Below are positions 1 to 17,900 of a stretch of 64,000 nt of DNA, piece by piece. This stretch comes from Microlunatus sp. Gsoil 973 (GTDB taxonomy: Bacteria; Actinomycetota; Actinomycetes; Propionibacteriales; Propionibacteriaceae). The stretch lies in NCBI RefSeq assembly GCF_009707365.1, contig NZ_CP046122.1:3162001-3226000 (forward strand), given 5' to 3'. Within the stretch, counting starts at the first letter, position 1. Every line of letters begins with the position of its first letter. The notes below the pieces were generated by a model. That model was given only the letters and a program-made list of their open reading frames with translations. It searched no databases and had not been told where the DNA came from. The position numbers were made by a program, and so were the translations under genes.

Positions 1-396
1 AGGCTCACTCCGGCGGAACTCAACGAGTTGTACAACTCGAGCATCGCGGGATTGGCGATGTCGTTCACCAACATCTCGTTGGTCGCCGAGGAGATGTTGG
101 CGGCGGGCGCCATCCCGGTGGTCAACGACTCGGTGCACTCCCGCGCTGACCTGGTCAACCAACACGTGGCCTGGGCAACGCCAACACCACAAGGGATCGC
201 GGCCGCACTGAGCGCAGCGGTCTCGAACCCGGATGTGGGCGCGACGGCGCGGTCGGCCGCTGAATCAGTCCGGCAGTTCGGCTGGACCAGGGCTCAAGCA
301 GACGTCGTTCGGATCATCGAGGACGAGGTGTACGGCGATCTTCGTGCCGTCCCGGCGCAACGAGCTGACGCATTCGCGTCGGAAGGACTCTCATGA
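1..396 (+). CDS. Glycosyltransferase, C-terminal part (5' end outside window)
   Basis: The reading frame is open from the first base of the window, so this is the 3' end of a gene starting upstream. The visible 131 residues contain a pattern typical of the C-terminal lobe of GT-B glycosyltransferases of the WsaF/rhamnosyltransferase kind: LTPAEL, then a segment around SFTNISLVAEEMLAAG, then PVVND. In that fold, such a stretch contacts the nucleotide-sugar donor. The gene ends in an ATGA overlap with the AMP-ligase gene (393-396), so the two are translationally coupled. The likely role is cytoplasmic sugar transfer to a growing EPS repeat unit. Donor and acceptor cannot be told from this fragment. 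Confidence 0.75.
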   Translation, partial: RLTPAELNELYNSSIAGLAMSFTNISLVAEEMLAAGAIPVVNDSVHSRADLVNQHVAWATPTPQGIAAALSAAVSNPDVGATARSAAESVRQFGWTRAQADVVRIIEDEVYGDLRAVPAQRADAFASEGLS

Positions 397-1952
397 GGAC
401 GAATTTCCATCACTTGCTGGCACAGGCTGCAGTCGCGACTCCGCAGGCGTCCGCGCTCACCTACCGTGGCCAGACGATCAGCTACGCCGAAACCTGGCGG
501 CAGGCCCAATCCGCGGCGGCGCAGCTGCAGCGGATCGGCGTCCTGCGCGGCGACCGGATCGCCGTCTACCTGGAGAAGCGGATCGAGACGGTGGCAGCGT
601 TCTTCGCTGCGTCGATCGCCGGGGCGATGTTCGTCCCGGTCAATCACGTTCTGAAGCCGTTGCAGGTGCGACACATCCTCGCCGACAGTGGTGCCAAGGT
701 GTTGATCACGTCCGCGGATCGGCTGGCCCAGTTGGCACCCACTCTGCGTGAGGCTTCGGTACAAGACGTGGTTGTAGTGGGTAAGCCCGGCGACACAACC
801 GCTGGGTGTCGGATGCACAGCTGGGAGGACGGCCAGCTAGCAGCCGACGGCGCCGAAACGCCGCCCGGACTCGTCGACATCGATCCGGCCGCAATCCTCT
901 ACACGTCCGGGTCGACGGGGAAACCGAAGGGCGTTGTGCTCAGCCACCGGAACCTCATCGTCGGTGCCGAGAGCGTGAGCAGCTATCTGGAGAACACGAG
1001 TGAGGACGTCATCCTCAGCGTTCTGCCATTGAGTTTCGACGCCGGCCTGAGCCAGGTGACCACGGCCTTCTCGGTCGGAGCACACGTGATCTTGATGAAC
1101 TACCTCCTGCCGAGGGAAGTTCCGAACTTGTGTGAGAAGTACGGCGTCACGGGGCTGACCTGTGTCCCTCCGCTCTGGCTCCAACTGGTGGAGACCCAGT
1201 GGCCGGCGACCGCCGCGACAACCCTGCGCTACTTCGCCAACACGGGTGGGCGGATGCCGCGAACCACGCTCAACAGACTGCGCGGCATCTTCCCCCAGGC
1301 CAAGCCCTTCCTGATGTACGGACTGACCGAGGCGTTCCGTTCCACCTACCTCGATCCGGACGAGATCGACCGGCGACCTGATTCGATCGGCAAGGCAATT
1401 CCCAATGCAGAGATCCTCGTCCTGCGGCCCGACGGCACACGCTGTGCGCCGGGTGAGGAGGGCGAACTCGTCCATCGCGGTGCACTGGTCGGACTGGGCT
1501 ATTGGAACGACCCCGTCCGCACCGCGGAGCGGTACCGACTGGTCAAGCATCCCGACCAGGACTGGCGTACCCCGGAGATGGCCGTGTGGTCGGGAGACAC
1601 TGTTGTCGCGGACGATGAGGGATTCCTCTACTTCGTCGGTCGCAGGGACGAGATGATCAAGACATCCGGCTATCGGGTGAGCCCGACCGAGATCGAGGAG
1701 GCAGCGTATGCCACCGGCCAGGTGCGTGATGTCGTCGCCTTCGGGGTACCCGACCCGACCTTGGGTCAGCGGGTCGTACTGGTGGCCACGCCGACCGCCT
1801 CCGAGTTGGACGTCGACGCCTTGATCACCGCCATGCGCCAGGCGTTGCCGCTGTACATGGTGCCGTCACAGGTTGAGGTCCGCCATGAGCTGCCCCGGTC
1901 GCCCAACGGCAAGTTCGACCGGAAACTGATCACCGCGGAGGTGTCGGGATGA
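393..1952 (+). CDS. AMP-forming acyl/aminoacyl ligase (ANL superfamily)
   Basis: This is a 519-residue adenylate-forming enzyme that activates a carboxylic acid with ATP and passes it to a thiol. The P-loop-like core motif YTSGSTGKPKG lies at residues 170-180. MYGLTEA follows in the middle, then the GDTVVADDEGF hinge region with RDEMIKTSGYRVSP, and the C-terminal catalytic Lys in NGKFDRK (about K507). All canonical ANL elements are present. It most resembles the acyl-CoA ligases described as exosortase-A-associated (TIGR03098-like), but no exosortase gene is visible here. It overlaps the decarboxylase by ATGA (1949-1952), and an ACP follows. The likely thiol acceptor is therefore that ACP rather than CoA. 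The substrate, amino acid or fatty acid, is unknown. Confidence 0.88.
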   Translation: MRTNFHHLLAQAAVATPQASALTYRGQTISYAETWRQAQSAAAQLQRIGVLRGDRIAVYLEKRIETVAAFFAASIAGAMFVPVNHVLKPLQVRHILADSGAKVLITSADRLAQLAPTLREASVQDVVVVGKPGDTTAGCRMHSWEDGQLAADGAETPPGLVDIDPAAILYTSGSTGKPKGVVLSHRNLIVGAESVSSYLENTSEDVILSVLPLSFDAGLSQVTTAFSVGAHVILMNYLLPREVPNLCEKYGVTGLTCVPPLWLQLVETQWPATAATTLRYFANTGGRMPRTTLNRLRGIFPQAKPFLMYGLTEAFRSTYLDPDEIDRRPDSIGKAIPNAEILVLRPDGTRCAPGEEGELVHRGALVGLGYWNDPVRTAERYRLVKHPDQDWRTPEMAVWSGDTVVADDEGFLYFVGRRDEMIKTSGYRVSPTEIEEAAYATGQVRDVVAFGVPDPTLGQRVVLVATPTASELDVDALITAMRQALPLYMVPSQVEVRHELPRSPNGKFDRKLITAEVSG

Positions 1953-3211
1953 GGCCGCAAGATCACCGCGATCCGTTCGGCACGCTCGACGGGGAACTGC
2001 GTGTGGGTGGACAGCCGCTGAGCAGGCTCGCGGCCCGAGTGGGCTCGACACCGTTCTTCGCCTATGACCGAGGCTTGCTTGATGAGCGGGTTGACCGGCT
2101 GCGGACCGCGCTGCCGGACCGCATCGAACTCAGTTACGCGATGAAGGCCAACCCGATGCCCGCCATCGTTCAGCACCTGGCCGGCCGGGTCGACCGAATC
2201 GACGTTGCCTCCGGGCTCGAGATGCAGGCGGCGCTCGACACGACGATGTCGCCGGACAAGGTGAGCTTTGCCGGACCTGGGAAGGCACCGGCGGAGATCC
2301 ATCAGGCCGTCGCGGCCGGAGTCACCATCGAGGTCGAGTCGACGACCGAACTCGAGCGCGTGATCAGTTCCGGGGACGATCTTGGTCTCGTGCCACGCGT
2401 TGCGGTGCGCGTCAATCCCGACTTCGCGGTGAAGGGCTCAGGAATGCGGATGGGTGGCGGGCCCCAGCAATTCGGGATCGATGCTGAAGAGGTGCCTGTC
2501 GTTCTGGAGAAATACGCCTCCGCAGGCGTGGACTTCCTCGGCTTCCATGTCTTCGCCGGATCACAGAACCTCAACGCGGACATCATCGCCGAGGCCCAGC
2601 GCCGCACCGTCGACCTTGTGTCGGACCTTGCCGAACATCTCTCCGCCCCATTGCGATACCTCAACCTGGGGGGTGGCTTCGGCATCCCGTACACCGAGAA
2701 GGATCAGCCGCTCGACCTGAACAAGATCGCCGAGAATCTACGCGAACTGGTCGACGGACCGATCGCCCACCGCTTCCCGCACGCCAGCCCCGTCATCGAA
2801 CTCGGCCGCTACATCGTCGGCGAGTGCGGGATCTACGTCACACGGGTCTTGGACCGGAAGTCATCGCGCGGCAAGACCTACCTGGTGGTGGATGGCGGCA
2901 TGCATCATCAGCTGGCCGCATCGGGGAACTTCGGCCAGGCGATCCGCCGCAATTATCCGTTGATCATCGGCAATCGCGCCGAGGCTTCGCCGGCAGAGGT
3001 CGTCAATGTCGTCGGTTGTCTGTGCACGCCGCTCGATCTGCTGGGCGACAAACTCGAGCTTCCCGCGGCACAGGTCGGTGACCTCGTGGTCATATTCCAG
3101 GCCGGGGCGTACGGCTTGACGGCCAGCCCCACGGCATTCCTGGGACATCCTGCCCCGGCTGAAGTTCTCGTCTCACCATCGCACTCGATTCCATCCAAGG
3201 AGCACCCATGA
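1949..3211 (+). CDS. PLP-dependent decarboxylase, fold III (diaminopimelate/ornithine decarboxylase type)
   Basis: A 420-residue group IV-type decarboxylase. The PLP Schiff-base lysine is in SYAMKANP (K66). H200 in FHVFAGSQ stacks on the cofactor in this family, and LGGGFGIPY (240-248) forms the phosphate loop. ELGRY (284-288) follows, with the active-site pair of Cys in VVGCLCTPLD (357/359) and D363, and the C-terminal AGAYG. It resembles the exosortase-A-associated decarboxylases (TIGR03099-like). The same fold is used by BtrK of butirosin synthesis, which decarboxylates an aminoacyl-ACP rather than a free amino acid. Coupling by ATGA to both ligase and ACP makes a carrier-bound substrate likely here too, but a free amino acid is not excluded. 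Confidence 0.88.
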   Translation: MRPQDHRDPFGTLDGELRVGGQPLSRLAARVGSTPFFAYDRGLLDERVDRLRTALPDRIELSYAMKANPMPAIVQHLAGRVDRIDVASGLEMQAALDTTMSPDKVSFAGPGKAPAEIHQAVAAGVTIEVESTTELERVISSGDDLGLVPRVAVRVNPDFAVKGSGMRMGGGPQQFGIDAEEVPVVLEKYASAGVDFLGFHVFAGSQNLNADIIAEAQRRTVDLVSDLAEHLSAPLRYLNLGGGFGIPYTEKDQPLDLNKIAENLRELVDGPIAHRFPHASPVIELGRYIVGECGIYVTRVLDRKSSRGKTYLVVDGGMHHQLAASGNFGQAIRRNYPLIIGNRAEASPAEVVNVVGCLCTPLDLLGDKLELPAAQVGDLVVIFQAGAYGLTASPTAFLGHPAPAEVLVSPSHSIPSKEHP

Positions 3212-3477
3212 GCAACATCACCACCGAAACCCTCGATGGCGTCCGCGACGTGCTGATCTCGTCGCTGGAACTGCAGCAGACGCCGGCCGACCTGCAGCCC
3301 GACACCCCACTCTTCGGGGCATTGCCCGAGCTCGACTCACTCGGCGTCCTGGCTCTCGTCACCGATCTCGAAGAGCGCTTCGACATCACGGTTGACGATG
3401 AGGAGTTCGGAGCAGACCTCTTCGAGACGGTGGGCACGCTGACCGACTTCGTCGAGGCGAAGCTGCGGGCGAGGTAG
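3208..3477 (+). CDS. Acyl carrier protein
   Basis: An 89-residue carrier protein of standard size. The 4'-phosphopantetheine attachment serine is S44 in ELDSLGVLAL, followed by the acidic recognition helix (VTDLEERFDI). The ATG overlaps the decarboxylase stop, and AAGGAG precedes it at a good distance. Together with the two upstream genes it forms a three-gene loading and decarboxylation cassette. It probably carries the activated substrate as a thioester and hands it to a transferase. It is unlikely to be the fatty-acid AcpP, because it sits among glycosyltransferase genes and differs from the usual AcpP sequence around the DSL motif. Confidence 0.9.
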   Translation: MSNITTETLDGVRDVLISSLELQQTPADLQPDTPLFGALPELDSLGVLALVTDLEERFDITVDDEEFGADLFETVGTLTDFVEAKLRAR

Positions 3478-3483
3478 AAACAC

Positions 3484-4401
3484 ATGGAACTTCCCAAGAT
3501 CGCAATCTGCGTTGTGACTTACAACAGCGCGCCGTTGATCAACGATCTGGTCGCGTCTCTTCGCGAGGGATGTGCCGGCGCCGAATGGTGTCTGGTGTTT
3601 GCCGACAACGCGTCAACAGACATGACCATCGCTGAGATCAGGCGCTGTGCACCAAATGCGATCTTGGTCGAGACCGGTGGCAACCTCGGCTATTCGGCAG
3701 GAATCAACGCTGCGGTGCGAGCGGCTGGCGAACAGGACGCGTACCTCATCCTCAACGCCGACGTCCGCCTGGCGCCGGACTGCGTAGTGACGCTGTACAA
3801 GACTCTTGGAGATCAGGTCGGGATCGCAGTCCCGCGGCTGAACGATGCCGAAGGTGAGCTGATCTGGTCAATGCGGCGGGAGCCTACGCTGCTACGTGCT
3901 TGGGCTGACGCGCTCATCGGCGCAGAACGGGTCGGCAGGTGGTCGGCGCTGGGCGAAATGATCACTAACGAGCGCCTCTATCAAGAGGCCCGTGGAACCG
4001 ACTGGGCCGAGGGGTCGACTCAGTTGATCAGTGCTGCATGTTGGCGTGCATGCGGACCGTGGGACGAAAGCTTCTTCCTATACTCAGAGGAGGCCGAGTT
4101 TGACCTGCGCGCCCGCGATCGAGGATTCGCTACGCGCTATGAGCCGAGTGCATTAGCGATCCACCTCGAGGGTGGCTCTGGATCCTCAGTTCGCCAATGG
4201 TCGCTCCTGGTCGTAAACAGGATTCGCCTGTTCAGCCGGCGTCACAACAGATTGTCGACCCTATTGTTCTGGCTGGCTATCGTCCTCAGGGAGGCAAGCC
4301 GCGCGGCCATGGGGAAGGCGACGAGTCGGGCCGCGATCCGCGACCTGGTCAGTGCCCGCCGCATGCGCGAGCGTCCTGGCCCGGCGTGGTTGTTGGGCTA
4401 A
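3484..4401 (+). CDS. Glycosyltransferase family 2 (rhamnosyltransferase-like)
   Basis: A 305-residue GT-A enzyme. The N-terminal strand IAICVVTYNS is typical of GT2, followed by NLGYSAGINAAV and the metal-binding NADVRL motif near residue 100. A later WAEGSTQLISA segment resembles rhamnosyltransferases that add sugars to cell-surface polymers. The SEEAEFDLRARDRG segment is the conserved acceptor-side motif. The start follows the ACP stop by 6 bp, with GAGG upstream, so it belongs to the same operon. The last 141 bp overlap the 3' end of the convergent polymerase gene. The sugar donor cannot be predicted. Confidence 0.85.
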   Translation: MELPKIAICVVTYNSAPLINDLVASLREGCAGAEWCLVFADNASTDMTIAEIRRCAPNAILVETGGNLGYSAGINAAVRAAGEQDAYLILNADVRLAPDCVVTLYKTLGDQVGIAVPRLNDAEGELIWSMRREPTLLRAWADALIGAERVGRWSALGEMITNERLYQEARGTDWAEGSTQLISAACWRACGPWDESFFLYSEEAEFDLRARDRGFATRYEPSALAIHLEGGSGSSVRQWSLLVVNRIRLFSRRHNRLSTLLFWLAIVLREASRAAMGKATSRAAIRDLVSARRMRERPGPAWLLG

Positions 4402-5772
4402 CGACGCCGGCGTGTAGGCAGCGTCGCTGCTCGACGTATCAACCTTTCGCCGCTCGCTCGCGGCCCGGGCGCGGCTCTCGCGTCCGGTCGCCAGCCTGGC
4501 AGCGGCACCTGCCAGACCGAGGCACAGGAAGATCGTGCCCATGGTCATCGGAAAGGCGAAGGCGTCAAAGAAGGCAAGGCTGACGAAGCCCGACACCAGC
4601 GACCCGGCGACAGAAACCGTCAGATCACGACTCGTGGGATCCTTCGTCGCGAGAAAGCCGGAGATGAGTCGTGCAAGAGCCGCGATGAGGATGCCGACGA
4701 ATGCGAGTGTGCCGAGAAGCCCGACCGTGACCAGCAATAGCAAGTACTGGTTGTCAAAGATTCGGTACTTCGGCAGAAAAGTCCCCAGCCCTCGACCAAA
4801 AAAGGGGTGTTGGACGAGGAAGGACGAAGCTACTGAGAAGCTGTCGGTCCGGGACGCGATACTTGGATCCTTCTCCGCACCAGCGAACAGATTCAACACG
4901 GACTGCACGAGGTTGGGAGCAAGGGCAGCCAGCCCCACCGTCCCGGCGGCGCCTAGACCGAGCACGACCAGGCGTTGCCTCCGAGACCATCCGATCGCGC
5001 AAACAAGAACGGCTAAGGCAGCCGACATGTAGGCCGCGCGTGAGGAAGAGATCGCGATTACGCCGCCAATTGCTAACGCGGGGAGCCACCTCAAGAACGC
5101 AGCTTTGCTGCGGTGATGGAAGGCGACATGCAGGGCGATCGGCAGGAGGATCGCGAGGATCGTCCCGTATTCCAGCGGATGGATGGCTGTGCCGGAAGGC
5201 CGGATGCGTCCGTCCCGAGTGTAGGCAGCGATCGAGGCCACAGCAGTAAGGCCCGGGATGCTGACCTGGTCCACGAGTGCCCGCTTCGTGACGAATTGCA
5301 CGGCTCCCAGCGCGGCGAGAAGTCCACCACCCGCCGCCAACCGCCACGCTAGAGTCTCCATTCTCGAGCGCGTCGGGATGCCATCGTGTGTCACAAGAAG
5401 CGCACCCGACCAGGACAGCAGCGACAGCAATGCCACATCAGCGGGGCTGACCTCGTCCCGACTGATCGGCCTCGACATCGCCAGTGCATATGAGATGCCG
5501 ACAAAGATCATGAAAATGGCGAGAGAGATTCGAACCGGCTCCGGGTGCATCCGAGTCCGGCGGGCGGTGCCAATATGCGCGAGAAGCCAAATCCCGAAGC
5601 TGCCGAGTCCCAGGAGCATGGACGGAGCCCCGGCGCTTCCCAGTGGTCCGATGACGAGGCGGGACGGGACGGCATAGAGGACGACGAGGTAGATGGTGAG
5701 CCACGAGACGGCGTCGAATCTGCGGCGCACGCCCGACCCTTCTACCACGGTCAGCGACGCTGGCCTGACCAC
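4261..5772 (-). CDS. O-antigen polymerase/ligase-like membrane protein (Wzy_C type)
   Basis: A 503-residue protein with about ten hydrophobic segments from residue 20 to about 430. It has the layout of O-antigen ligases and Wzy polymerases, including the FFGRGLGTFLPKYR segment after a large periplasmic loop. It is expected to join EPS repeat units on the outer face of the membrane. The GTG start at 5772 overlaps the end of the upstream Wzz-like gene by 22 bp. The last ~70 residues are charged and low in hydrophobicity, and about 47 of them are encoded antisense to the GT2 gene. The functional protein may therefore effectively end near residue 430. A second polymerase-like gene lies at 35207-36622. 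Confidence 0.8.
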   Translation of the reverse strand: MVRPASLTVVEGSGVRRRFDAVSWLTIYLVVLYAVPSRLVIGPLGSAGAPSMLLGLGSFGIWLLAHIGTARRTRMHPEPVRISLAIFMIFVGISYALAMSRPISRDEVSPADVALLSLLSWSGALLVTHDGIPTRSRMETLAWRLAAGGGLLAALGAVQFVTKRALVDQVSIPGLTAVASIAAYTRDGRIRPSGTAIHPLEYGTILAILLPIALHVAFHHRSKAAFLRWLPALAIGGVIAISSSRAAYMSAALAVLVCAIGWSRRQRLVVLGLGAAGTVGLAALAPNLVQSVLNLFAGAEKDPSIASRTDSFSVASSFLVQHPFFGRGLGTFLPKYRIFDNQYLLLLVTVGLLGTLAFVGILIAALARLISGFLATKDPTSRDLTVSVAGSLVSGFVSLAFFDAFAFPMTMGTIFLCLGLAGAAARLATGRESRARAASERRKVDTSSSDAAYTPASLAQQPRRARTLAHAAGTDQVADRGPTRRLPHGRAACLPEDDSQPEQ

Positions 5773-6585
5773 GCTGGCCGACTCCTTGCAACGTTGCTGA
5801 GGACCGACTCGTCAACCTTGTCGCCCGAACGGCCGGAGTGTCGAACGGTCTCTACGGACGTGGACGGCGATGCTTCCGGCAGCGGCGAGGAGGCCACAAC
5901 ACGCGGATCCTTCGTTGCGTGATCGGGGCCGGGGCTCCTGTCAGCAGTCGGCTCCGAGCCTGGCTCTACTGCGGGCGTCATTCTACGCTTGCGACGCAGC
6001 GCGATGCCGTCCACCGCGAAGACGACCAACGCGGTCAACGCGAATCCGACGGCGACCGCGGCCACCGTCGTTCGGACCATGGCGCTATGGCTGGGTTCAG
6101 CTCTGGAATCGATGACTAGCGGAGTGGACCTAACATCACTTTCCGTCGGGGCGCCGACCTTCGCCTGGATTCTCGCGAGATTGGGGGGGGATCGAACTGA
6201 CCGCATAGTTGAGAGCCTTCAGCGTCCCCTCCGCGGTGGTGTCCTCGACGTCCACGGCGATCACCGGTCCGCCGGTGGAGTCGTCGATCGATACATCAAT
6301 GCTCGCAGTCGGAGCGGCCGCTTCCATCTGGGCACGCGCGTCGGCGCTGGCGTAATACGCGACAAGCACGCGACCCGGCAAATCCAGGCCGTCGAGGGCC
6401 AGAAGCGGGTTGGATGTCGTCTTGAGCGTCTCCTGCGAGGGGAGTAGCAGCACAAGGCCACGAGCCGTGTACGTCGGCGGGCTCGCAACAGCTGCCCCGT
6501 ACCCGAGCGCTCCAGTGATGAGCAGTCCGGCCATCAGGAGATACCACCTGCGCCGGAGAGCACCTAAAAATTCGGCCAATGCCAC
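5751..6585 (-). pseudogene. Wzz-like chain-length determinant, frameshifted at a C8 tract
   Basis: Two overlapping frames together encode one protein. The first (from 6585) has an N-terminal membrane segment after LRRRWYLL, a PPTYTA segment typical of Wzz proteins and a periplasmic domain up to NYAVSSIP. The second (to 5751) continues with NLARIQAKVG, a second membrane segment and a basic cytoplasmic tail. They are joined at a run of eight C on the coding strand (6183-6190). Seven C would give one open frame of 277 residues. The protein should regulate EPS chain length with the polymerase at 4261-5772. The indel may be a sequencing error, a recent mutation or slipped-strand phase variation. 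Confidence 0.75.
6183..6190 (-). repeat. Homopolymer C8 (coding strand) at the frameshift
   Basis: Eight identical bases lie exactly where the two frames of the Wzz-like gene meet. Removing one C restores a 277-codon protein. Tracts of this length are prone to replication slippage and also to sequencing error. Confidence 0.9.
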
Positions 6586-6739
6586 AATATCGGACTGTAG
6601 TCAAGGGCTGCACGTGTTGCTGGCGTTTTGGGATATCAGGGCGTTTCCAAGCGGCTCGACGCGCCGAAGTTTAGGCTGCTTTCAGGCGGGTCGCGTCGGC
6701 CTGCACATCCGAATGTCGATGTACCCCGGGAGACAGCAC

Positions 6740-7447
6740 ATGACGCTCTGGGATCTGGTGTTGGCGTTTTTCCGACGGTGGCCCGTACTGCTCGTAGGAG
6801 CATTGATCACGTGCACCTGCGGGGGCCTCGCAACCCGGGACAACGGTGTCTACTGGACACGCACCCAGGTGATCTTGTTGGCGCCGAAGGAGTGGTACCC
6901 GAACAAGCTGGAAGTCAGTCCTTGGGAGGTCACCAAGGCGACCGGCGTCGTCGTCAAGCGAGTTGTCGGCGCGGGCAGCCGGATCAAGTATGCGTCTCCG
7001 GAAGCCACCATGATCGGTACGTCGAATGTCCGCGACGGGACCTGGATTCGACAAGAGGATAACGGCGGGCAATGGTCTGTTGGCCTCACATCGCCGGTGA
7101 TCATCGTGGAAGCGGTCGGGCCAACTCCGGAACGGGCTCAAGAGCTGCAACAAGTAGCGGCCAACCTTATCGCTCACAACCTTGCGCAACTTCAGCGGGA
7201 CTGGGGGGTGAATCCCAAGTTGTGGATCACAAGCACTGTCGCACCAGCGCCCGCGGTGATCTATCACGTGACCGGAAGCAAGCCGCGGGCTCTGGGGATG
7301 ACTGCCCTGCTTGGGGTCGGGATAACTCTCGGTTTCGTTCTTGCGCTCGAGTACCGAGTACGCCGGCGAGCGGAGACCGACGCGGACGCACCCGAATCTG
7401 AATTTGTCATATTGGACGACGCGGCCGGCGCCCCAGTAACGAACTGA
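6740..7447 (+). CDS. Wzz/YveK-like polysaccharide chain-length protein
   Basis: A 235-residue protein with one membrane segment at residues 13-35 (FFRRWPVLLVGALI) and a second at about 190-212, enclosing an extracytoplasmic domain. This is the arrangement of Wzz-type co-polymerases without a kinase domain. I chose the ATG at 6740 because GGGAGA lies 7 bp upstream and the membrane segment follows at the expected distance. Longer in-frame starts back to 6410 would run antisense through the neighbouring gene. It is divergent from the other Wzz-like gene, and the 154 bp between them probably hold both promoters. It lacks the proline-rich signature of classic Wzz, so the exact role is inferred. 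Confidence 0.65.
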   Translation: MTLWDLVLAFFRRWPVLLVGALITCTCGGLATRDNGVYWTRTQVILLAPKEWYPNKLEVSPWEVTKATGVVVKRVVGAGSRIKYASPEATMIGTSNVRDGTWIRQEDNGGQWSVGLTSPVIIVEAVGPTPERAQELQQVAANLIAHNLAQLQRDWGVNPKLWITSTVAPAPAVIYHVTGSKPRALGMTALLGVGITLGFVLALEYRVRRRAETDADAPESEFVILDDAAGAPVTN

Positions 7448-7460
7448 TTCGGGGCACGCG

Positions 7461-8111
7461 CTACCGCACCCGTTTCACGAGACTTGCCAGGAGATCTCGC
7501 GAATCTCCTATGCCCAGGCGGTGACCGACGATCGCCCGAATCGTGTCTGGGGTGTCGTCCTTCGTGACGCTGAAGCGGCCCTGAAGCCACGCACCCGGCC
7601 GGGCAGGGAGCCTGTCGCTGGAATAGACGGACCGATACCCACGATTCTTGAGAGCGGCTAGTACACCTCGGTCGAAGCGACCCAGCGGCAGAGCTGCCTG
7701 GTCGACCGGTCTGCCGATGGCACTCGCCAGCACAGCACGCGCTTCAACGAACTCCTTATGTTGCTGCGCCGCGCTGAGATGACGCCACGGAATGTGCTCC
7801 CAGCCGTGGCTGCCGATTGTCATGCCAGCCCTCCGCAACTGCTTGAGACCCTCAATAGTGACGCTGTCTCTGTCCTCGAGTCGGCCAGCGACGATGAAGA
7901 AGGTTGCCGTGAGCCCGCGCTGCAACAAGGCGGGCAGTGCCACCTCGATATCCGAGGCGTTCCCGTCGTCAAAGCTCAATCGAACGTGCGGTTGATCGAC
8001 AACAACATCGAGTACTTCTGAGAATCGCTCCTCCGTTATCCAGTATCTGGATTCCCCTGCTTCTCGCTCGCGTGCACATCTGCCGATGCCGTGAAAGCAA
8101 ATGTTGATCAT
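7461..8111 (-). CDS. Polysaccharide deacetylase (NodB/CE4 family)
   Basis: A 216-residue metal-dependent deacetylase. Motif 1, LSFDDGN, supplies the catalytic base and metal-binding aspartates (D48, D49). Motif 2, GSHGWEH, supplies the metal-binding histidines (H102, H106). Motif 3 is weak: the region around AALPLGRFDRG stands where the usual arginine motif lies. There is no signal peptide, so it would act inside the cell, for example on a lipid-linked intermediate, unless exported another way. The start overlaps the stop of the GT2 gene (ATGA at 8108-8111), so the two are co-translated. The expected effect is removal of N-acetyl groups from amino sugars of the EPS. Confidence 0.85.
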   Translation of the reverse strand: MINICFHGIGRCAREREAGESRYWITEERFSEVLDVVVDQPHVRLSFDDGNASDIEVALPALLQRGLTATFFIVAGRLEDRDSVTIEGLKQLRRAGMTIGSHGWEHIPWRHLSAAQQHKEFVEARAVLASAIGRPVDQAALPLGRFDRGVLAALKNRGYRSVYSSDRLPARPGAWLQGRFSVTKDDTPDTIRAIVGHRLGIGDSRDLLASLVKRVR

Positions 8112-8980
8112 GAGGTTTGAGGTCTACCTGTCAGGGTCCCAGTGCGAGTGCTTTCGTCCCGCCCCCAGGCGTGGCCAGCCTTCGGATGACGGCGCGCCAT
8201 CACTGCGGCCCCGAACGTGAGCACCAGGTATGGGACAGTCGCGGGTGCCAGCCACGGTTCGTGCCGAACGACATCCCGCATCCATGCCCACCGGTCTGAA
8301 TGCCGTACCGAAACATCGATCTCCCCGGCGACACTAGCAGCGCGCATCTCGGCGTTGCCCCGGCGAACCCGAACCAGTCGTCGGAATAGATCCCGCGTGG
8401 TGTACGGCGCTTCAATCGTCACGACCACATCGCGCGTCTCCACCTTCTCCGCTTCCGAAAACAGAGAGTCGAGGAAGAGGTCATCGGCAATCATCAACGG
8501 GAAGGCGCCGAACCGCGCCCTTCCCTCTTCGGACAAAGCGATCATTCCCCGCCCGAAGAGCCCATTGCGGAACACCGGAAGCCGCTCGTAGATCGCGGAA
8601 TATGCACGCACTATCGACGGTCGCCCAGCCTTGTCGACGCGTCGGCTCGGGACGACGGCCAATACGCGGGAGTCGTGTTCCAATCGTTCCAAGATCTTCG
8701 TTACGCCGTCGCGAGGAACGACGATGTCTGCGTCGAGATAGATGCGCGGGAAGGTTGTTGCGATCTCGTCGCCCGCGTTCAACGCTGCACCCTTCCCGGG
8801 CTCTGGGCGATCAACGACCACAACTCCGGGACGGCGCGCCACCGAAGCCGTCTGATCGCTACACCCGTTCGCGATCACGATGATCTCTAGGGGTGCTTGA
8901 CCCTGCTGTTCGAGCAGCGCATCGAGCGTGGCATTGATCACCTGTTCCTCGTTGTGCGCTGCGATTACGACACTGGGCAT
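8108..8980 (-). CDS. Glycosyltransferase family 2
   Basis: A 290-residue GT2 starting at the ATG at 8980, where the family N-terminus PSVVIAAHNEE begins directly. The open frame runs further upstream but encodes nothing family-like. Motifs are NGCSDQTA, EPGKGAALNAG, and the metal-binding LDADIVV at about residue 85. The C-terminal third contains a hydrophobic stretch (PYLVLTFGAAVMARR) that may attach it to the membrane. It shares an ATGA junction with the NodB deacetylase, suggesting that the transferred sugar is the deacetylase substrate. Donor sugar unknown. Confidence 0.85.
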   Translation of the reverse strand: MPSVVIAAHNEEQVINATLDALLEQQGQAPLEIIVIANGCSDQTASVARRPGVVVVDRPEPGKGAALNAGDEIATTFPRIYLDADIVVPRDGVTKILERLEHDSRVLAVVPSRRVDKAGRPSIVRAYSAIYERLPVFRNGLFGRGMIALSEEGRARFGAFPLMIADDLFLDSLFSEAEKVETRDVVVTIEAPYTTRDLFRRLVRVRRGNAEMRAASVAGEIDVSVRHSDRWAWMRDVVRHEPWLAPATVPYLVLTFGAAVMARRHPKAGHAWGRDESTRTGTLTGRPQTS

Positions 8981-9329
8981 TATTCGTATTCCTGTCCTGC
9001 GCGGCCACTTCGTAGCCTGGCCTGGTCTTTGGCCCCATGGCACGAGACTAAGCCAGCAAGAACCGCCCCACGGGTAATACGGACAAGTCAGGTCAACAGA
9101 CCTAGTGGACAGCTGCCCGGTCCGCGCTCCGGCCCGCAAAATCCGTCCAGAGCTGGAGATATCGCACGAAATCGTGGCGGGGCAGATAGCCTTACCCTGG
9201 GTGGCACGTTCAGCCTGCGCCGATCTCGGCGGCGTGGGCCGTCAGCCTCGCACCCGCGTCGCATGTGATGCGTGCGAACGTGAGTGTCCAACCGTGGCTT
9301 CCAGCAGGGATTCGTCGTCTGAGGTCGCG
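8981..9329. other. Intergenic region between divergent genes
   Basis: About 350 bp lie between the GT2 start on the minus strand and the acetyltransferase start on the plus strand. Frames across it are open but do not resemble either protein family. It should hold the two divergent promoters. I see no convincing -35/-10 pair and no strong inverted repeat. Confidence 0.4.
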
Positions 9330-10256
9330 GTGACCGAAACAACGAACTTGAAGGTTGCACGAATGAGGCCAGGCGCTGTCAATGATTCCATCCGCTCCCT
9401 TTCGGTCAGCCTCCGACCGATCAAGACAGACGACGCGGCGACGATCGGAGAATTCCTCCACCGCCACCTCAACAGATCGGTCACACCGCAGGACTGGACC
9501 AAGCTCATCCACACTCCTTGGAAGGTCGATGCGCCGAACCACGGATTCCAATTAACCAACGGCGACGCCATCGTCGGCGCGTACCTTGCCGTCTACAGCG
9601 TGCGAGGGGGCGAAGCGGGACCGGTGCGCGTTTGCAACCTTGCGGCATTCTGTGTCCTGAAGGAATTCCGCATGCACGGGCTTCGACTAGCACGCGCGCT
9701 GCTGGCACAGCAGGACTATGTATTCACAGATCTGTCGCCGAGCGGAAACGTAGTCGGACTCAATGAACGTCTCGGTCTGCGACGGCTGGACACGTCGACT
9801 CGGCTCGTGGCCAACCTGCCGAGCACACCAAGGCGAGGCATCCGAGTATCCGGTGATCCCGAGGTCATCGCGAGAGTACTTCGACACGGAGATTCTGATG
9901 TCTATCGCGACCATCGCGCGGCTGCCGCCGCGCGGCACATTGTCGCGGAACACGCTGGAGGCTATGCCTATCTGGTATTCAGACGTGACCGACGCAAGGG
10001 GCTTCCACTCTTTGCATCGCCGCTCTATGTCGGTGGGGACCCGGCAGTCCTTGAGGCCGCATGGCCGAGTGTCACATCTCATATCCTTCTTGCTCACCAT
10101 CTGCCGGCAACACTCGCGGAACGCCGCATCCTGGGGTTCACTCCGCGCAGGGGATTCGAACTGAGGAGTCCAAGGCCAAAGATGACCCGAGGCGGGAGGC
10201 TCGCTGCCACCGACATCGATTATCTGTACAGCGAACTCGCGCTGGTCGAGTGGTAG
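9330..10256 (+). CDS. GNAT-like acyltransferase
   Basis: A 308-residue protein if started at the GTG at 9330. An ATG at 9363 is the main alternative, and neither has a strong ribosome site. The N-terminal half begins SVSLRPIKTDDAATIGEFLHRH, a classic GNAT opening. It has a central strand VCNLAAFCVLKEFRMHGLRLARALL that matches the acetyl-CoA-binding motif A region. The second half could be a second degenerate GNAT domain. The presumed function is N- or O-acylation of an EPS precursor, or a peptidoglycan or FemAB-like role. It stands alone on the plus strand and converges on the beta-helix lipoprotein gene with only 4 bp between stops. Confidence 0.6.
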   Translation: MTETTNLKVARMRPGAVNDSIRSLSVSLRPIKTDDAATIGEFLHRHLNRSVTPQDWTKLIHTPWKVDAPNHGFQLTNGDAIVGAYLAVYSVRGGEAGPVRVCNLAAFCVLKEFRMHGLRLARALLAQQDYVFTDLSPSGNVVGLNERLGLRRLDTSTRLVANLPSTPRRGIRVSGDPEVIARVLRHGDSDVYRDHRAAAAARHIVAEHAGGYAYLVFRRDRRKGLPLFASPLYVGGDPAVLEAAWPSVTSHILLAHHLPATLAERRILGFTPRRGFELRSPRPKMTRGGRLAATDIDYLYSELALVEW

Positions 10257-11403: not shown

Positions 11404-12873
11404 TCAGCAGGAAACGGCCCGTATAGGAACCGGTTGACCTTTATTGTCGAGCTTCACTATTTCCGCCTGCCACTGGCTCAGTGACGAGCACGAATCAACG
11501 GCCACCGGACCATAACCCCAGCTTTGGTCAACTATATTCAGGTTTGAAACTGACCCCGGCATGCCCAACCGGAACGGGTACCCACCACCGCTTACGATGA
11601 GGCGGTCAACGTCCACAGCGGTATTTCCTTGATCCGCTGGATAGAAGAACGGCGCGGTTCCGCCACACCCGTCCTCTTCAAGCTTGATCACCGAATTTCG
11701 GATTGCCAGCTTCGCTCCGCCATACCCCTGAATGCCGTCTCCGTGCCAGTCGCCACAAACGTCGGGGCGCTGTACCCGAATGAAGGAGTCCTCGATGACA
11801 ACAGGTCCACATGCTGGCTTGCCGCCTACTCGCATGCCTTCTGGCGCACCGTCAACCAACACATTTCGAGCGGTGTAGCTACCGGCACCAATCACGGGAG
11901 TGCCCGTCTGATCGGATCCGAGGTTCCCGCGCCGAAATGTCGAATCCTCGATCACGAGGCCAGAGCTGCAGGTCGAGCCGGCGTAGTTGTCGACTCGAGC
12001 TCCGATTCCTTCCACGCGACGGAGAGTCACGTTCTGCGCCTCGACAGAGATCGTGCCGCTGACTCGGACGTCCTGAAGCACGGCACCCGCCGTCCTGATG
12101 TGTAGATCGCCCTTGATCGTGCGCTCTGGTTTCCACCCATCCGGAAGCCCCGTCGTGTCGCGGGTTGGATACACTTCGCCCGACAACTTCACCGGCGTCG
12201 TTGGGCCGGAGGATGGCTGCGGCTTTGGGGTTGCAGGCTTGGACGGTTGCGGTGTCGCAGGCTTGGACGGAAAAGCTGTCGCGGCGGGCTGGAACCCGAC
12301 ATCAACGAAGTAGTTGGAGCCGCGCCAACTTTGCGTCGGGAACCTACTGGTGCTGCCGTAACGATAGACGCCGCCGTTGGCAGGCACCCGGAACCCGTTT
12401 CTGGTCGCTGGTCTGGTGAACACCGAGTTGGTTGCCGCGTACTGCCCTGCCGGGGCGTAGTAGGAGGCAACCAAGGTTTGTCCGGCCGTTACCCGGACCG
12501 GCTTGCTGAGCTTCGCAGTCTGCCATCCAGAAACCGAAGACGCCGGAAACTTGGCTGTGGCTAGTCTCTTCCTGGCGGTCGACCAGACTGTGCCGGTGTA
12601 GGCAGCTTTCTGGGCGTGACTGCGATAGAACTGAATGGACGTGATGGTTCCGGCTCTGGCGCTGGTGAATCTCAACCCGAGCTCGACGCCGGAGGGGTCT
12701 GGATCCACCGGCACGGCAGGCTTCACACCGTGATTGAGGATCGTCATGGTCGTCGCCGACGCTTTCGTGGGCGGTATGAGGAAAGCCGCCAACACCATAC
12801 AGATTGATGCCGTGATGGCCAGCGCGGAGGTGCGCGAGGCATGCCGGGGTACAGGTGACCGATATTCGGACAT
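11404..12873 (-). CDS. Secreted DUF4082 plus beta-helix protein
   Basis: A 489-residue exported protein with a signal peptide at residues 1-40 (ends SATT). A DUF4082 domain at about 42-200 has GVELGLRFTS, a GWQTAKLSKPV strand and the closing YGSTSRFPTQSWRGSNYFVDVGF. A Pro/Lys/Thr-rich linker follows (about 203-230). The C-terminal half is a parallel beta-helix with repeats such as LVIEDSTFRRG and VVIEDSFIRV. DUF4082 domains also occur four times in the large protein at 14950-19806, which links the two as parts of one surface system. The function is probably polymer binding or matrix anchoring. Catalytic residues were not recognised. The 231 bp upstream are AT-rich for this window and should hold the promoter. 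Confidence 0.75.
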   Translation of the reverse strand: MSEYRSPVPRHASRTSALAITASICMVLAAFLIPPTKASATTMTILNHGVKPAVPVDPDPSGVELGLRFTSARAGTITSIQFYRSHAQKAAYTGTVWSTARKRLATAKFPASSVSGWQTAKLSKPVRVTAGQTLVASYYAPAGQYAATNSVFTRPATRNGFRVPANGGVYRYGSTSRFPTQSWRGSNYFVDVGFQPAATAFPSKPATPQPSKPATPKPQPSSGPTTPVKLSGEVYPTRDTTGLPDGWKPERTIKGDLHIRTAGAVLQDVRVSGTISVEAQNVTLRRVEGIGARVDNYAGSTCSSGLVIEDSTFRRGNLGSDQTGTPVIGAGSYTARNVLVDGAPEGMRVGGKPACGPVVIEDSFIRVQRPDVCGDWHGDGIQGYGGAKLAIRNSVIKLEEDGCGGTAPFFYPADQGNTAVDVDRLIVSGGGYPFRLGMPGSVSNLNIVDQSWGYGPVAVDSCSSLSQWQAEIVKLDNKGQPVPIRAVSC

Positions 12874-13104
12874 CGGGGGCTCGTCCCACTTTCCGGTCTA
12901 GGGGGGTTCGGTTAGGCAGGGCGTTATCGGACTGAGACGTTAGCAGTAAGGCCAGCGTGCGTCACTGCGCTACCCAATGTCAATTACCGTCAAAGTTGCC
13001 GAAAGAAATCAGCGTGAAGAAGTCTCATCTGATTCGCATCAGCGTTTGCTCAGTGGAGCACAATTACGGCCCAGCTTTAACCGCAATACGCCAATTTAGG
13101 TGAA

Positions 13105-13731
13105 TTATTGGCGCGAATGATGTGTCGACCCGACTGGCGGATCGAGCGGTGCGCCCGTGACCAGACGAAGTCCGTCTTGCCACTCGGCGAACACCCTGCC
13201 GCATTCAGTGCAAGCAAGATTGTCGGACACGCGCGCAGCGCAGACACAGACCCAACCGATCCGGCGTGCAGGGGCACCAACGATGAAGGCGTGAGGCGGA
13301 ACATCCTTGGCGATCACCGTCCCGGCGCCCGCAAAGGCGTACTCGCCGACCGTCACACCACAAACGACGGTGGTCCGTGCACCGAGGGTGGCGCCACGGC
13401 GTACGTGCGTTGTCAGCAGCGCATCGCCGCTGCGCTTGATGAACGCGCGTGGCCGAAGATCGTTGGTGAAGGTCACCCCCGGACCGAGGAAGACGTCATC
13501 GGCAATATCGACGCCGTCGAAGATCATCACCTGGTTCTTGACGGTAACCCGGTCCCCGATCCGTACCTTGCCCTCGACATAGGCGCCATCGCAGATATTG
13601 CATTCGGCTCCGATCCGAGCACCCGCCATGATGTGGGCGAACGCCCAGACCCGAGTGCCGGCACCAACGGAATCGCTTTCACACAAGGCGTTGGGGTGGA
13701 TGAAGACTCCCGTGCTCGCGTGCCCCGCCAT
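13105..13731 (-). CDS. Left-handed beta-helix N-acetyltransferase (WlbB/WbpD-like)
   Basis: A 208-residue hexapeptide-repeat enzyme. Opening HPNALCESDSVGAGTRVWAFAHIMAG and the central GVTFTNDLRPRA segment match the WbpD/WlbB family, which N-acetylates UDP-3-amino-uronic acid or UDP-3-amino sugars. Hexapeptide repeats run from about residue 12 to 150. The C-terminal 50 residues hold a four-cysteine cluster (CVC, later CTEC) that looks like a small zinc ribbon, seen in actinobacterial versions of the family. UDP-glucose dehydrogenase at 39785 would supply the uronic acid side of such a pathway, but the 3-oxidase and aminotransferase are not in the window. Confidence 0.8.
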   Translation of the reverse strand: MAGHASTGVFIHPNALCESDSVGAGTRVWAFAHIMAGARIGAECNICDGAYVEGKVRIGDRVTVKNQVMIFDGVDIADDVFLGPGVTFTNDLRPRAFIKRSGDALLTTHVRRGATLGARTTVVCGVTVGEYAFAGAGTVIAKDVPPHAFIVGAPARRIGWVCVCAARVSDNLACTECGRVFAEWQDGLRLVTGAPLDPPVGSTHHSRQ

Positions 13732-14949: not shown

Positions 14950-17900
14950 GTGAAGAACAGCAGTAACAGTCAGTCGCGCAAGCGTTCGGACGCGCGCGAG
15001 GGTACGGACGCCAGGCGTTGGACGTTCAGCCGCCGACGATTGCTCGGAACCGCAGGGATCACGGCCGCCGCGGGTGCCACACTCCAGGCCGTCCGCCCGG
15101 CGCGGGCTGCGGCATCGACCGGCGCCGGGCCGAATTCCATTCAGGACGAGAACGCGCTGCCGGGTTCCGATCCGTCCGAGTGGGATTCCTGGGACAACGA
15201 AAGTATCCAGGGCTACACCACCAGGTACAGCTTCCTGCCTGGCGAGACCGTGGATTTCAAGGTCAAGACCGATTCATCCAACTGGCAGATCAGAGTCTTC
15301 CGGATGGGGTGGTACGGCGGGAAGGGCGCCCGGTGGATGGCCGATGTGACTCCATCGGTCCCGCTTCCCCAACTTCAACCGGAGGACCCTGTTCTCGATG
15401 CCGGCACCCTGCTCAAGGACTACGGCAACTGGTCGGTGTCGGCGTCCTGGACGATTCCGACGACTGCTGTCTCCGGTGTCTATTACGCCCTGTTCGAGCG
15501 GCTCGACAACGACGAATCCAACCACTGCATCTTCGTCGTACGCCGGGACGGCCCGTCCGACATCCTGGTCCAGACGTCCGAGATGACCTGGCAGGCGTAC
15601 AACCTGTACGGCGACAACAGCCTGTACTTCAGCGAGCAGGGGGCAGACCTTCCCCGCGCGTACAAGGTCAGCTACAACCGGCCGATCTCCGGCGGCGGCA
15701 TCGAGAACATGTTCCTGGGTAGTGAGTTCCCGCTGGTCAGGTTCCTCGAACGAAACGGCTACGACGTCGCCTACTGCGGCGGCATCGATGTCCACGAGAA
15801 CGGCAGCCTGCTGTTGGATCGCAAGGTGTTCATCTCGTCCGGACACGACGAATACGTCTCCGACGCGCAACGAACCCACGTCACGAGCGCCCGCGACGCC
15901 GGCGTGAATCTGATCTTCATGACCGGCAACGAGTACTTCTGGAAGGTCCGCTTCGAGCCGTCGATCGACGGCAGCGGCACCGAGAACAGAACTCTGGTCT
16001 GTTACAAGGAGACTCACGCCAACGCCAAGATCGACCCTTCGCCGGAGTGGACAGGGACCTGGGCTGATCCAAGGTTCTCCCCGCCCAGCAACGGCGGGCG
16101 GCCGCAGAACGCGCTGACCGGACAGTTCTTCAGAGTGATCCTGCCGACAGATCAACTCGATGACACGATGACGGTGCCCGCTGAGTACGCGCCGCTGCGC
16201 TTCTGGCGCAATACCGAGGTGGCCGATCTTGAGCCGGGCGAGACCCGGGCGCTGGCTCCCAGCACGCTGGGCTATGAGTTCGATTGTGATGAGGACAACG
16301 GATATCGCCCGCCCGGCAGCATTCGGCTGTCCTCGACTACTGTCACGGTTCCACAGATCCTTCGTGACTACGGCACCACCTATTCCTCCGGCACGACCAC
16401 CCACAACATGACCGTCTATCGCGCATCCAGCGGAGCTCTGGTGTGGGGCACGGGTACGGTGCAATGGGCGTACGGCCTGGACGAGTATCACGAAGCTGAT
16501 CAAGGAACGCCGATCGATCCCGCGATGCAGCAGGCCACCGTCAACATGCTCGCCGATATGGGGGTCCAGCCGACGACTCTGATGAGTGGCATGGTTGCGG
16601 CGCACCAGTCGACCGACACAGCAGGGCCGACGGTGACCATCACCTTCCCCACCGACGGTGCGACCTTTCCGCTGGGCACTGCGTTGACGATCACGGGTAC
16701 CGCCGAGGATGCGGACGGAGTCGTCGGGGGCGTCGAAATGTCCACTGATGGTGGCGAGACCTGGCATCCGATCACGGGTACGGCGTCGTGGAGCCACGTG
16801 TTCACATTGCTGACCGCCGGAGCGAATACGATCAAGGTCCGCGGTGTCGATGACAGTTACAACGTCGGAGAGCCGGCCACGATCACCGTTACCGCGGGTC
16901 CGCGCGAGTACCCGTGTTCGATCTGGCCCGAATCCATCGTTCCCGCGGTCGCCTCGGCCGATGATCAGGGCAGCGTCGAGGTCGGTCTGAAGTTCCGGTC
17001 CGATAAGTCGGGTTTCGTCACAGGGCTGAAGTTCTACAAGGGGTCGGGAAACAAGGGTCCCCATCTCGGGCGGCTCTGGACGAGCTCCGGGACCAAGCTG
17101 GCCGAGGCCACATTCGACAACGAGACCGCAGCCGGGTGGCAGAGGGTGAGTATCCCGACCGTGCCGGTCGCTGCCAACACGACGTACGTCGCATCCGTCT
17201 ACATGCCGGTCGGAAACTACGCAGCCGACGCGGGCTACTTCGCCCAGGCCTTCACCCTCGACCCGATGACTGCGCTGGCCGATGGTGACCAGGGACCGAA
17301 CGGGATGTACCACTACGGATCCAGTGGCTTTCCAGATCAATCCTTCGGAGCCACGAACTATTGGGTCGATGTGGTGTTCACGATCCACGACGCGAATCCG
17401 CCACGGGTGGTCGACTCGACACCGGCACCAGACGTCAATTCGGTCAGCGTGTCCGAACCACTGACGTTGACCTTCGGCAGCGGAGTGAAAGCGTCGTCAA
17501 TCGATCTTGAGCTCAGATCCGCGGCCGGTGAGACCGTGAGTGGCAGCACGAACTATGACTCCGATTCCCAGACGCTGACGTTCACGCCGGACTCCAATCT
17601 GGGGCGGCTGACCAAGTACGCACTCACGCTGAAATCGGCGGAGAACACCGACGGCGTGCCGCTGACCGAACCCGTGGTGATCAACTTCACGACCATCGGT
17701 GTGGTCGGCAGCTACCCGTCGAGCATTTGGGACAGTGCAGACAAACCGACGTTCTTCGCCAACGACGACACCAGTGCTGTCGAGCTCGGTGTGCACTTCA
17801 CCAGCGACGTCGACGGCAGCATCTCCGCGCTTCGCTATTACAAGGCTCCCGGATCGCCGGGAGCCCACGTCGGACACCTGTGGAGCCCGGCAGGAGAGCT

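Follow-up and report, generated by a model that had tools for sequence, protein, structure and literature searches.

A five-gene module in an exopolysaccharide locus without exosortase may make and attach an omega-amino-acyl group

The DNA studied here is a 64,000-nucleotide window from the actinobacterium Microlunatus sp. Gsoil 973 (bases 3162001-3226000 of a 4.91-Mb single-contig genome). It contains an exopolysaccharide (EPS) locus in which genes for an ANL ligase, a fold-III pyridoxal phosphate-dependent decarboxylase, and an acyl carrier protein (ACP) are accompanied by genes for a NodB-like polysaccharide deacetylase and a tandem-GNAT protein. We tentatively propose that these five genes form a module that makes an omega-amino-acyl group and probably attaches it to the EPS. 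An earlier note on this DNA had described the ligase-decarboxylase-ACP triad as joined by ATGA overlaps and flanked by glycosyltransferase genes. The open reading frames (ORFs), strands, and overlaps bear this out, with ATGA at 393, 1949, and 3208 forming the start of the ligase, decarboxylase, and ACP genes, respectively. The cassette boundaries given there, 393-3477, hold for the triad and leave out two linked genes, the deacetylase gene at 7461-8111 and the GNAT gene at 9363-10256. The suggestion that the product is placed on polysaccharide agrees with the gene context; what it missed was the GNAT protein and the deacetylase as candidate attachment enzymes, which could supply the missing attachment step.

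Judging from its residues, the ligase would adenylate a dicarboxylic amino acid (L-glutamate most likely, L-aspartate otherwise) at its side-chain carboxyl and would pass the activated amino acid to the Ser44-phosphopantetheine of the ACP. The decarboxylase, by its relationship to BtrK of butirosin biosynthesis, would then strip the alpha-carboxyl group on the carrier to give 4-aminobutanoyl-ACP or beta-alanyl-ACP. In the cytoplasm, the deacetylase would act on the lipid-linked repeat unit and unmask the amine of one of its N-acetylhexosamines, to which the tandem-GNAT protein would transfer the amino-acyl group from ACP, forming an amide. The decorated unit would finally be flipped and polymerized into an EPS that bears primary amines. 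Under this model, the EPS would carry a positive or zwitterionic charge.

For the ligase, a score of 733.1 bits was obtained against TIGR03098 (acyl-CoA ligase, exosortase A system-associated), exceeding the curated cut-off of 592.35. When the full protein was compared with PDB entries by phmmer, linear gramicidin synthetase subunit A (269 bits) and VinN of the vicenistatin pathway (235 bits) were the best solved relatives. When only residues 200-335 were used, VinN was the top match with 49 bits, the next enzyme being a 4-coumarate-CoA ligase (31 bits). Ligase D216, T284, and R316 align to VinN D230, S299, and R331 (a numbering that differs from that of the chain by a constant 16), residues that presumably hold the substrate by its amino group and by the carboxylate removed in the later decarboxylation. 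All three ligase residues are identical in 60/60 aligned sequences, the window included. The alignments, made with an 80% coverage filter and including the window, retained 60/69 ligases, 49/81 decarboxylases, and 39/64 ACPs; before filtering, there were 71, 80, and 68 BLAST matches, respectively. The window ligase carries the VinN-type signature of Asp, hydroxyl, and Arg at the presumed substrate positions. An Arg at the site of the free carboxylate makes sense only if the other carboxylate is joined to the ACP, which points to loading through the side-chain carboxyl. In addition, the VinN pocket residues F231 and Y234 are replaced by Ala and Ser in the window ligase, which weakly suggests space for a longer acid such as glutamate. 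Identity as a fatty acyl-CoA ligase was rejected, given that the best family of this kind scored 306 bits compared with 733 for TIGR03098 and that an Asp occupies the amino-acid position.

The decarboxylase scored 581.4 bits against TIGR03099 (decarboxylase, exosortase A system-associated), over its curated cut-off of 478.45, so the resemblance to exosortase-A-associated families noticed earlier holds for both enzymes. Its closest solved relative was BtrK (265 bits by phmmer and 330 bits with a profile), followed in the profile search by 6knh (219 bits) and the best diaminopimelate decarboxylase, 2p3e (206 bits). K66 was kept in 49/49 aligned sequences. By sequence, the decarboxylase is nearer to BtrK than to decarboxylases of free amino acids. 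Assignment as LysA was ruled out, as the cassette protein reached 244 bits against a LysA cut-off of 298 and a separate LysA (442 bits) is encoded elsewhere in the genome. As described in part of PMC7857480, BtrK converts glutamyl-ACP to 4-aminobutanoyl-ACP (GABA-ACP) by decarboxylation, and according to part of PMC11284099 the thioester of the vicenistatin pathway is formed before decarboxylation. With BtrK as the nearest relative, VinN as the best segment match, and the key residues kept, the earlier analogy to butirosin and vicenistatin survives; amino acid loading on the ACP, followed by decarboxylation there, is a well-supported prediction. For the carrier itself, Ser44 was kept in 39/39 aligned sequences, the window included. 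The ACP is weakly similar to DltC and has a net charge of -15 (family median, -14).

The tandem-GNAT protein, searched among three members of its family, gave no Pfam or NCBIfam match at an E value of ≤0.01. A fourth member gave no NCBIfam match at 0.001 (PHROGs and PADLOC lay outside the search), and the family profile gave 0 matches in the PDB at an E value of ≤1. An AlphaFold2 model built from a 60-sequence alignment reached a predicted local distance difference test score (pLDDT) of 94.1 and a predicted template modeling score (pTM) of 0.90. The 50 Foldseek matches listed had E values from 2e-9 to 4e-7 and template modeling (TM) scores by query of about 0.36-0.57, and they included Eis-like and other tandem GNATs, N-myristoyltransferases, and a glucosamine N-acetyltransferase of Clostridium acetobutylicum (TM, 0.56). 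Judging from the model, the product of 9363-10256 has a GNAT fold. The usual coenzyme A (CoA) loop of GNAT enzymes reads R/Q-x-x-G-x-G/A. This family departs from that consensus at the last position: R103 is found in 57/60 sequences and G/S106 in 58/60, with Arg or Lys at position 108 in 60/60. An Arg or Lys that closes the loop throughout the family is a poor fit to a CoA site. The protein has a net charge of +12 (family median, +7), with a basic stretch conserved at R207-K212. The altered loop end, together with the pairing of a basic GNAT and an acidic ACP, makes us lean toward the ACP as the predicted donor.

The same evidence bears on a different role for the GNAT protein, that of a protecting or capping enzyme that acetylates the amino-acyl amine from acetyl-CoA, on the ACP or on the glycan, with attachment left to another enzyme and a neutral product. 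We regard this as unlikely. In the butirosin pathway, the amine is capped. Such a cap is described for vicenistatin in part of PMC11284099, where Ala is placed on the amine of the ACP-bound group. The acetyltransferases and N-myristoyltransferases among the Foldseek neighbors of the GNAT protein would suit such an enzyme. A capping role accords poorly with the Arg or Lys at the end of the CoA loop in all 60 GNATs, and no other conserved transferase was recognized near the triad among the neighboring gene clusters that were annotated.

In the deacetylase, Asp48, Asp49, His102, and His106 are invariant in 51/51 aligned sequences, and no signal peptide was evident by eye at its N terminus. It was not a NodB chitooligosaccharide deacetylase of TIGR04243 (18.5 bits; cut-off, 240), and its 22.4 bits against the XrtA-type family TIGR03006 did not reach the cut-off of 276.

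Whether these genes travel together was examined in 293 Propionibacteriales genomes, with 6 candidates scored per genome in the TIGR03099 search and 8 in the GNAT search. The GNAT family was found in 25/293 genomes, exactly the 25 with an over-cut-off TIGR03099 protein, and in 0/268 of the others. These genomes span two genera; among the 14 genomes of the window's genus, 6 have both proteins and 8 have neither. If genomes were independent, which they are not, identical sets would arise by chance with a probability of about 1e-36, or 3e-4 within the genus. In one genome (G240), the GNAT and decarboxylase genes lie on separate contigs, so the link between them is not one of adjacency alone. The deacetylase subfamily, at an E value of ≤1e-70, was present in 25/25 cassette genomes and in 1/268 other Propionibacteriales genomes (G239), and a further 16 triad-free genomes had weaker matches, down to 1e-20.

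As the earlier note had proposed, genomes were searched for the triad and its neighbors. The relatives were the best 80 of 522 from a contig scan, all with actinobacterial or Rhizobiales labels apart from two odd ones. Together with the window they gave 81 stretches, in which neighboring genes were found by clustering of adjacent ORFs and by profile search. The ligase was present in 71 of the 81, the ACP in 70, the tandem GNAT in 60, and the deacetylase in 53. Two kinds of family 2 glycosyltransferase occurred in 51 (relatives of the 3484-4401 gene) and 33 stretches, and a Wzy_C protein occurred in 40. In 66/69 adjacent co-directional pairs, the end of the ligase gene overlaps the decarboxylase start as an in-frame ATGA or GTGA. 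After exclusion of loci on short contigs, 61 full-flank loci remained, of which 43 contain the ligase, decarboxylase, ACP, GNAT, and deacetylase genes together. Two of the 61 lack the ligase alone, and one lacks the ACP alone by this count, although a separate search had matched an ACP there.

The GNAT gene keeps varied positions next to the triad. It lies immediately upstream of the ligase gene on the same strand in 32/80 loci, immediately before the decarboxylase gene in 4 loci (with an in-frame GTGA overlap in 3), and facing the ACP gene across 5-64 bases in 9 loci. In Mycolicibacterium vaccae (L115), GNAT-family genes were seen on both sides of the cassette, at 5883-6746 and 12552-13412. 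The rhizobial order, all in one direction, is GNAT, ligase, decarboxylase, ACP, glycosyltransferase, and deacetylase; in the rhizobial locus L114, the ACP was missed by the profile search. On pSymB of Sinorhizobium meliloti, the five genes form one operon. The rhizobial operon stretch was found in 27 Sinorhizobium plasmid records, including those of Rm41, SM11, and RU11/001, and the two that were examined are pSymB. In 20 Sinorhizobium records among the matches listed, the GNAT is called a "hypothetical protein" or has no annotated feature. The incomplete gene table of CP140937 omits the decarboxylase, which other Sinorhizobium records name.

A midpoint-rooted tree of 69 decarboxylases placed the exosortase-free sequences and L160 in one clade (100/99). 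Within this clade, the decarboxylases of GNAT loci group together (99/93), along with those of L077 and L105, two loci that showed no GNAT; ten GNAT-less rows form a sister clade set apart from them (100/97). L161, whose genome (G735) has no exosortase match, groups with the exosortase rows; the genome of L160 (G446) has no exosortase match either. The rhizobial-type decarboxylases L079, L085, L096, L113, and L160 nest inside the actinobacterial ones, which suggests that the module was transferred between phyla. Copies labeled Stenotrophomonas maltophilia (L063) and Candidatus Melainabacteria (L094) also branch among the actinobacterial sequences and perhaps come from mislabeled or contaminated assemblies. 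In Amycolatopsis rifamycinica (L076, 1268-13775), a close decarboxylase gene has a regulator gene and a modular polyketide synthase as neighbors, with no ligase, ACP, or GNAT near it in this stretch; it is placed as if for an amino-acid starter unit.

A role apart from EPS also finds some support here. The sister clade of ten rows shows no GNAT in its stretches, and a polyketide synthase neighbors the L076 decarboxylase, as might be expected if the module made a small molecule or a lipid head group and merely neighbored EPS genes. We consider this distinctly unlikely, since GNAT-bearing loci of both actinobacteria and rhizobia commonly keep glycosyltransferase, Wzy_C, and deacetylase genes beside the cassette.

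A reversed order of the first two steps, in which the ligase would load the ACP with a free amine (such as GABA or beta-alanine) already made by the decarboxylase, would be in line with the use of free amino acids by many fold-III relatives. This appears very unlikely, given that the nearest solved relative, BtrK, uses ACP-bound glutamate (part of PMC7857480) and that the ligase Arg at the alpha-carboxylate site of VinN would be useful only while that carboxylate is still present.

The families of the ligase and decarboxylase are named after exosortase A systems, and the comparison with such systems was therefore extended to whole genomes. The earlier observation that no exosortase is present holds for the whole window genome, with 0 matches to TIGR02602. 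It holds over the cut-off for 71 relatives' genome entries as well, where 3 hits stayed weak at 23-27 bits; one genome gave two of these. Identification of the module as an exosortase system was rejected on these grounds. Over-cut-off TIGR03099 proteins were found in 30/398 Pseudomonadota genomes, 27 of which also have an over-cut-off exosortase, and the GNAT family was found in 2 of the 3 exosortase-free ones (432 and 439 bits). Among 15 further Pseudomonadota genomes with weaker decarboxylases, 3 have an over-cut-off exosortase. More distant GNAT relatives were found in 5 of the 15, and in one of these 5 (G353) a 90-bit GNAT match lies about 1.5 kb from the decarboxylase. A further reading, modeled on what is supposed of exosortase systems, is that the module supplies the acceptor on which a protein-sorting enzyme, unrecognized here, would act. 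We find this hardly credible: the family names and the 27/30 count speak for it, and the lack of any over-cut-off exosortase in the 71 entries, with only the three weak matches, speaks against it.

Of 20 Pseudomonadota loci, all have a decarboxylase; a ligase and an ACP match were each found in 19. Nearby were two types of alpha/beta hydrolase (in 15 and 14 loci), a deacetylase (9), and a FemAB protein (7). One example each of the hydrolases, the deacetylase, and FemAB exceeded the cut-offs of TIGR03100, TIGR03101, TIGR03006, and TIGR03019, respectively. The FemAB example carries a GNAT domain, and in L173 the deacetylase is paired with a GNAT-domain FemAB protein. When representatives of FemAB and of both hydrolases were compared by BLAST with the 81 exosortase-free stretches, 0 matches (E ≤ 1e-5) were obtained. 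In the 19 Pseudomonadota ligases, 17 of which come from genomes with an over-cut-off exosortase and two (L160 and L161) from genomes without, the Asp and Arg were kept in 19/19 and the hydroxyl in 19/19 (6 Thr and 13 Ser). A broader idea, of which we are doubtful, is that a self-standing, transferred pathway decorates EPS with carrier-made omega-amino acids, and that exosortase A loci use the same triad, with FemAB as the transferring enzyme, to build an amine-bearing glycan that serves as the anchor point for the proteins of the exosortase. On this view, the form without exosortase would be the same amine-making module minus the anchoring.

Several observations weigh against the proposal that the five genes make and attach an omega-amino-acyl group. 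The GNAT protein may use acetyl-CoA instead of ACP: its CoA loop differs clearly from the usual one at the last position alone, and the Foldseek matches listed are CoA enzymes at TM scores of about 0.36-0.57. The substrate-binding roles of VinN D230, S299, and R331 are presumed ones, and the conserved ligase residues do not discriminate glutamate from aspartate as the substrate. The genes do not always keep together. Five of the 61 full-flank loci lack the deacetylase alone; another 5 lack the GNAT as well as the deacetylase but have the ligase, decarboxylase, and ACP; and 5 more have no ACP, GNAT, or deacetylase (3 with the decarboxylase only and 2 with decarboxylase and ligase). G239 has the deacetylase at ≤1e-70 without the triad, and three more triad-free genomes have deacetylase matches between 1e-64 and 1e-56. 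Among the 27 exosortase genomes, one (G441) does have a GNAT relative, a distant one (228 bits) whose gene is some 200 kb away from that of the decarboxylase. Finally, no experimental work on any member of the module was found in the open-licence literature.

The features of the locus are collected in Table 1.

Table 1. Positions of the triad and its neighbors in the window
Feature	Position	Strand	Evidence or remark
WsaF-type glycosyltransferase gene, 3' end	1-396	+	ATGA overlap with ligase gene
ANL ligase, predicted amino acid--ACP ligase, 519 amino acids	393-1952	+	TIGR03098 over cut-off
Fold-III PLP decarboxylase, predicted amino-acyl-ACP decarboxylase, 420 amino acids	1949-3211	+	TIGR03099 over cut-off
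Standalone acyl carrier protein, 89 amino acids	3208-3477	+	PF00550, 31.5 bits; Ser44 is the predicted phosphopantetheine site
Family 2 glycosyltransferase	3484-4401	+	PF00535, 52.9 bits; 6 bases past ACP gene
O-antigen ligase/polymerase-like membrane protein (Wzy_C)	4261-5772	-	PF04932, 50.7 bits
NodB-like polysaccharide deacetylase	7461-8111	-	PF01522 (Polysacc_deac_1), 76 bits
Family 2 glycosyltransferase	8108-9139	-	PF00535, 67.7 bits; ATGA overlap with deacetylase gene
Tandem-GNAT protein, predicted transferase of ACP-bound group	9363-10256	+	AlphaFold2 model and Foldseek

The WsaF-type glycosyltransferase gene is cut by the window edge; the full gene (L011:6101-7396) gave 47 bits to Pfam WsaF_C and 34 bits to WsaF_N. 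The first family 2 glycosyltransferase ORF and the Wzy_C ORF are convergent and overlap by 141 bases at 4261-4401, and the C terminus of the Wzy_C protein may be misframed or naturally long. This protein weakly resembles TIGR03097, the exosortase A-associated O-glycosylation ligase (25 bits; cut-off, 188). A plus-strand ORF at 6410-7447 had no Pfam match and looks membrane protein-like by eye; 24 loci have relatives no more than 9 kb from the cassette. Farther along, 11404-12873 encodes a DUF4082 protein (150 bits), perhaps a secreted protein that acts on EPS; 35 loci have related ORFs at most 9 kb from the cassette. The 1,618-amino-acid protein of 14950-19806 combines an N,N-dimethylformamidase-like domain, four DUF4082 domains, and bacterial Ig domains.

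The genes upstream in locus L009 encode a Gfo/Idh-type protein (best NCBIfam match UDP-GlcNAc 3-dehydrogenase, 143 bits, under the cut-off), a sugar epimerase/dehydratase (under cut-offs), two DegT aminotransferases, a flippase, and a NeuD/PglB-type acetyltransferase (183 bits, over the cut-off). From this gene set, which includes the DegT aminotransferases, it follows that the locus also makes amino sugars. The acceptor amine could instead be supplied by these aminotransferases.

In the open-licence literature, surveyed mostly by titles and the openings of abstracts, nothing was found on the products of the TIGR03098 and TIGR03099 enzymes, which databases name after exosortase. By a word search of its main text, the founding 2006 exosortase paper (PMC1569441) names neither the ligase nor the decarboxylase, and part of PMC2907700 mentions exosortase and no cassette. 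The kinds of enzyme in the module are known; what seems not to have been described in that literature is their combination, the setting without exosortase, and the GNAT family. Here, a specific, testable substrate and carrier are proposed, and a conserved tandem-GNAT family is added as the likely transferase. The exosortase-free module of actinobacteria and Sinorhizobium meliloti offers a simpler setting for study. If the proposal is true, it would provide a new route to amines on bacterial polysaccharides and would point at the acceptor of exosortase A.

Compared with the EPS loci of exosortase A (XrtA), the window shares TIGR03098 and TIGR03099 proteins over the cut-off, an ACP of the same kind, and the same substrate residues in the ligase. 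Unlike those loci, it belongs to a genome without exosortase and has a tandem GNAT where they have FemAB.

For vicenistatin, the standalone ANL ligase VinN, the decarboxylase VinO, and the ACP VinL act in this order, according to part of PMC11284099. The window has the same triad of standalone proteins and keeps the Asp, Thr (Ser in VinN), and Arg, but VinN, VinO, and VinL belong to a polyketide cluster, whereas the cassette of the window has EPS genes around it, along with a GNAT and a deacetylase; the VinN pocket residues F231 and Y234 also differ, as noted above. For butirosin (BtrI/BtrJ/BtrK), the likeness lies in BtrK as the nearest solved decarboxylase. BtrJ is an ATP-grasp ligase and the acceptor of that pathway is an aminoglycoside; the ligase of the window module, in contrast, is an ANL enzyme.

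In the Dlt system, an amino acid is loaded on a carrier and amines are put on a surface polymer, with extracytoplasmic formation of an ester. The window module differs in adding a decarboxylation, and cytoplasmic transfer to an amine is proposed for it. In Nod factor synthesis (NodA/NodB/NodF), a hexosamine is deacetylated and then re-acylated from a special ACP. The module proposed here would follow the same logic of deacetylation and re-acylation from a dedicated ACP, with an amino acid rather than a fatty acid as the group transferred.

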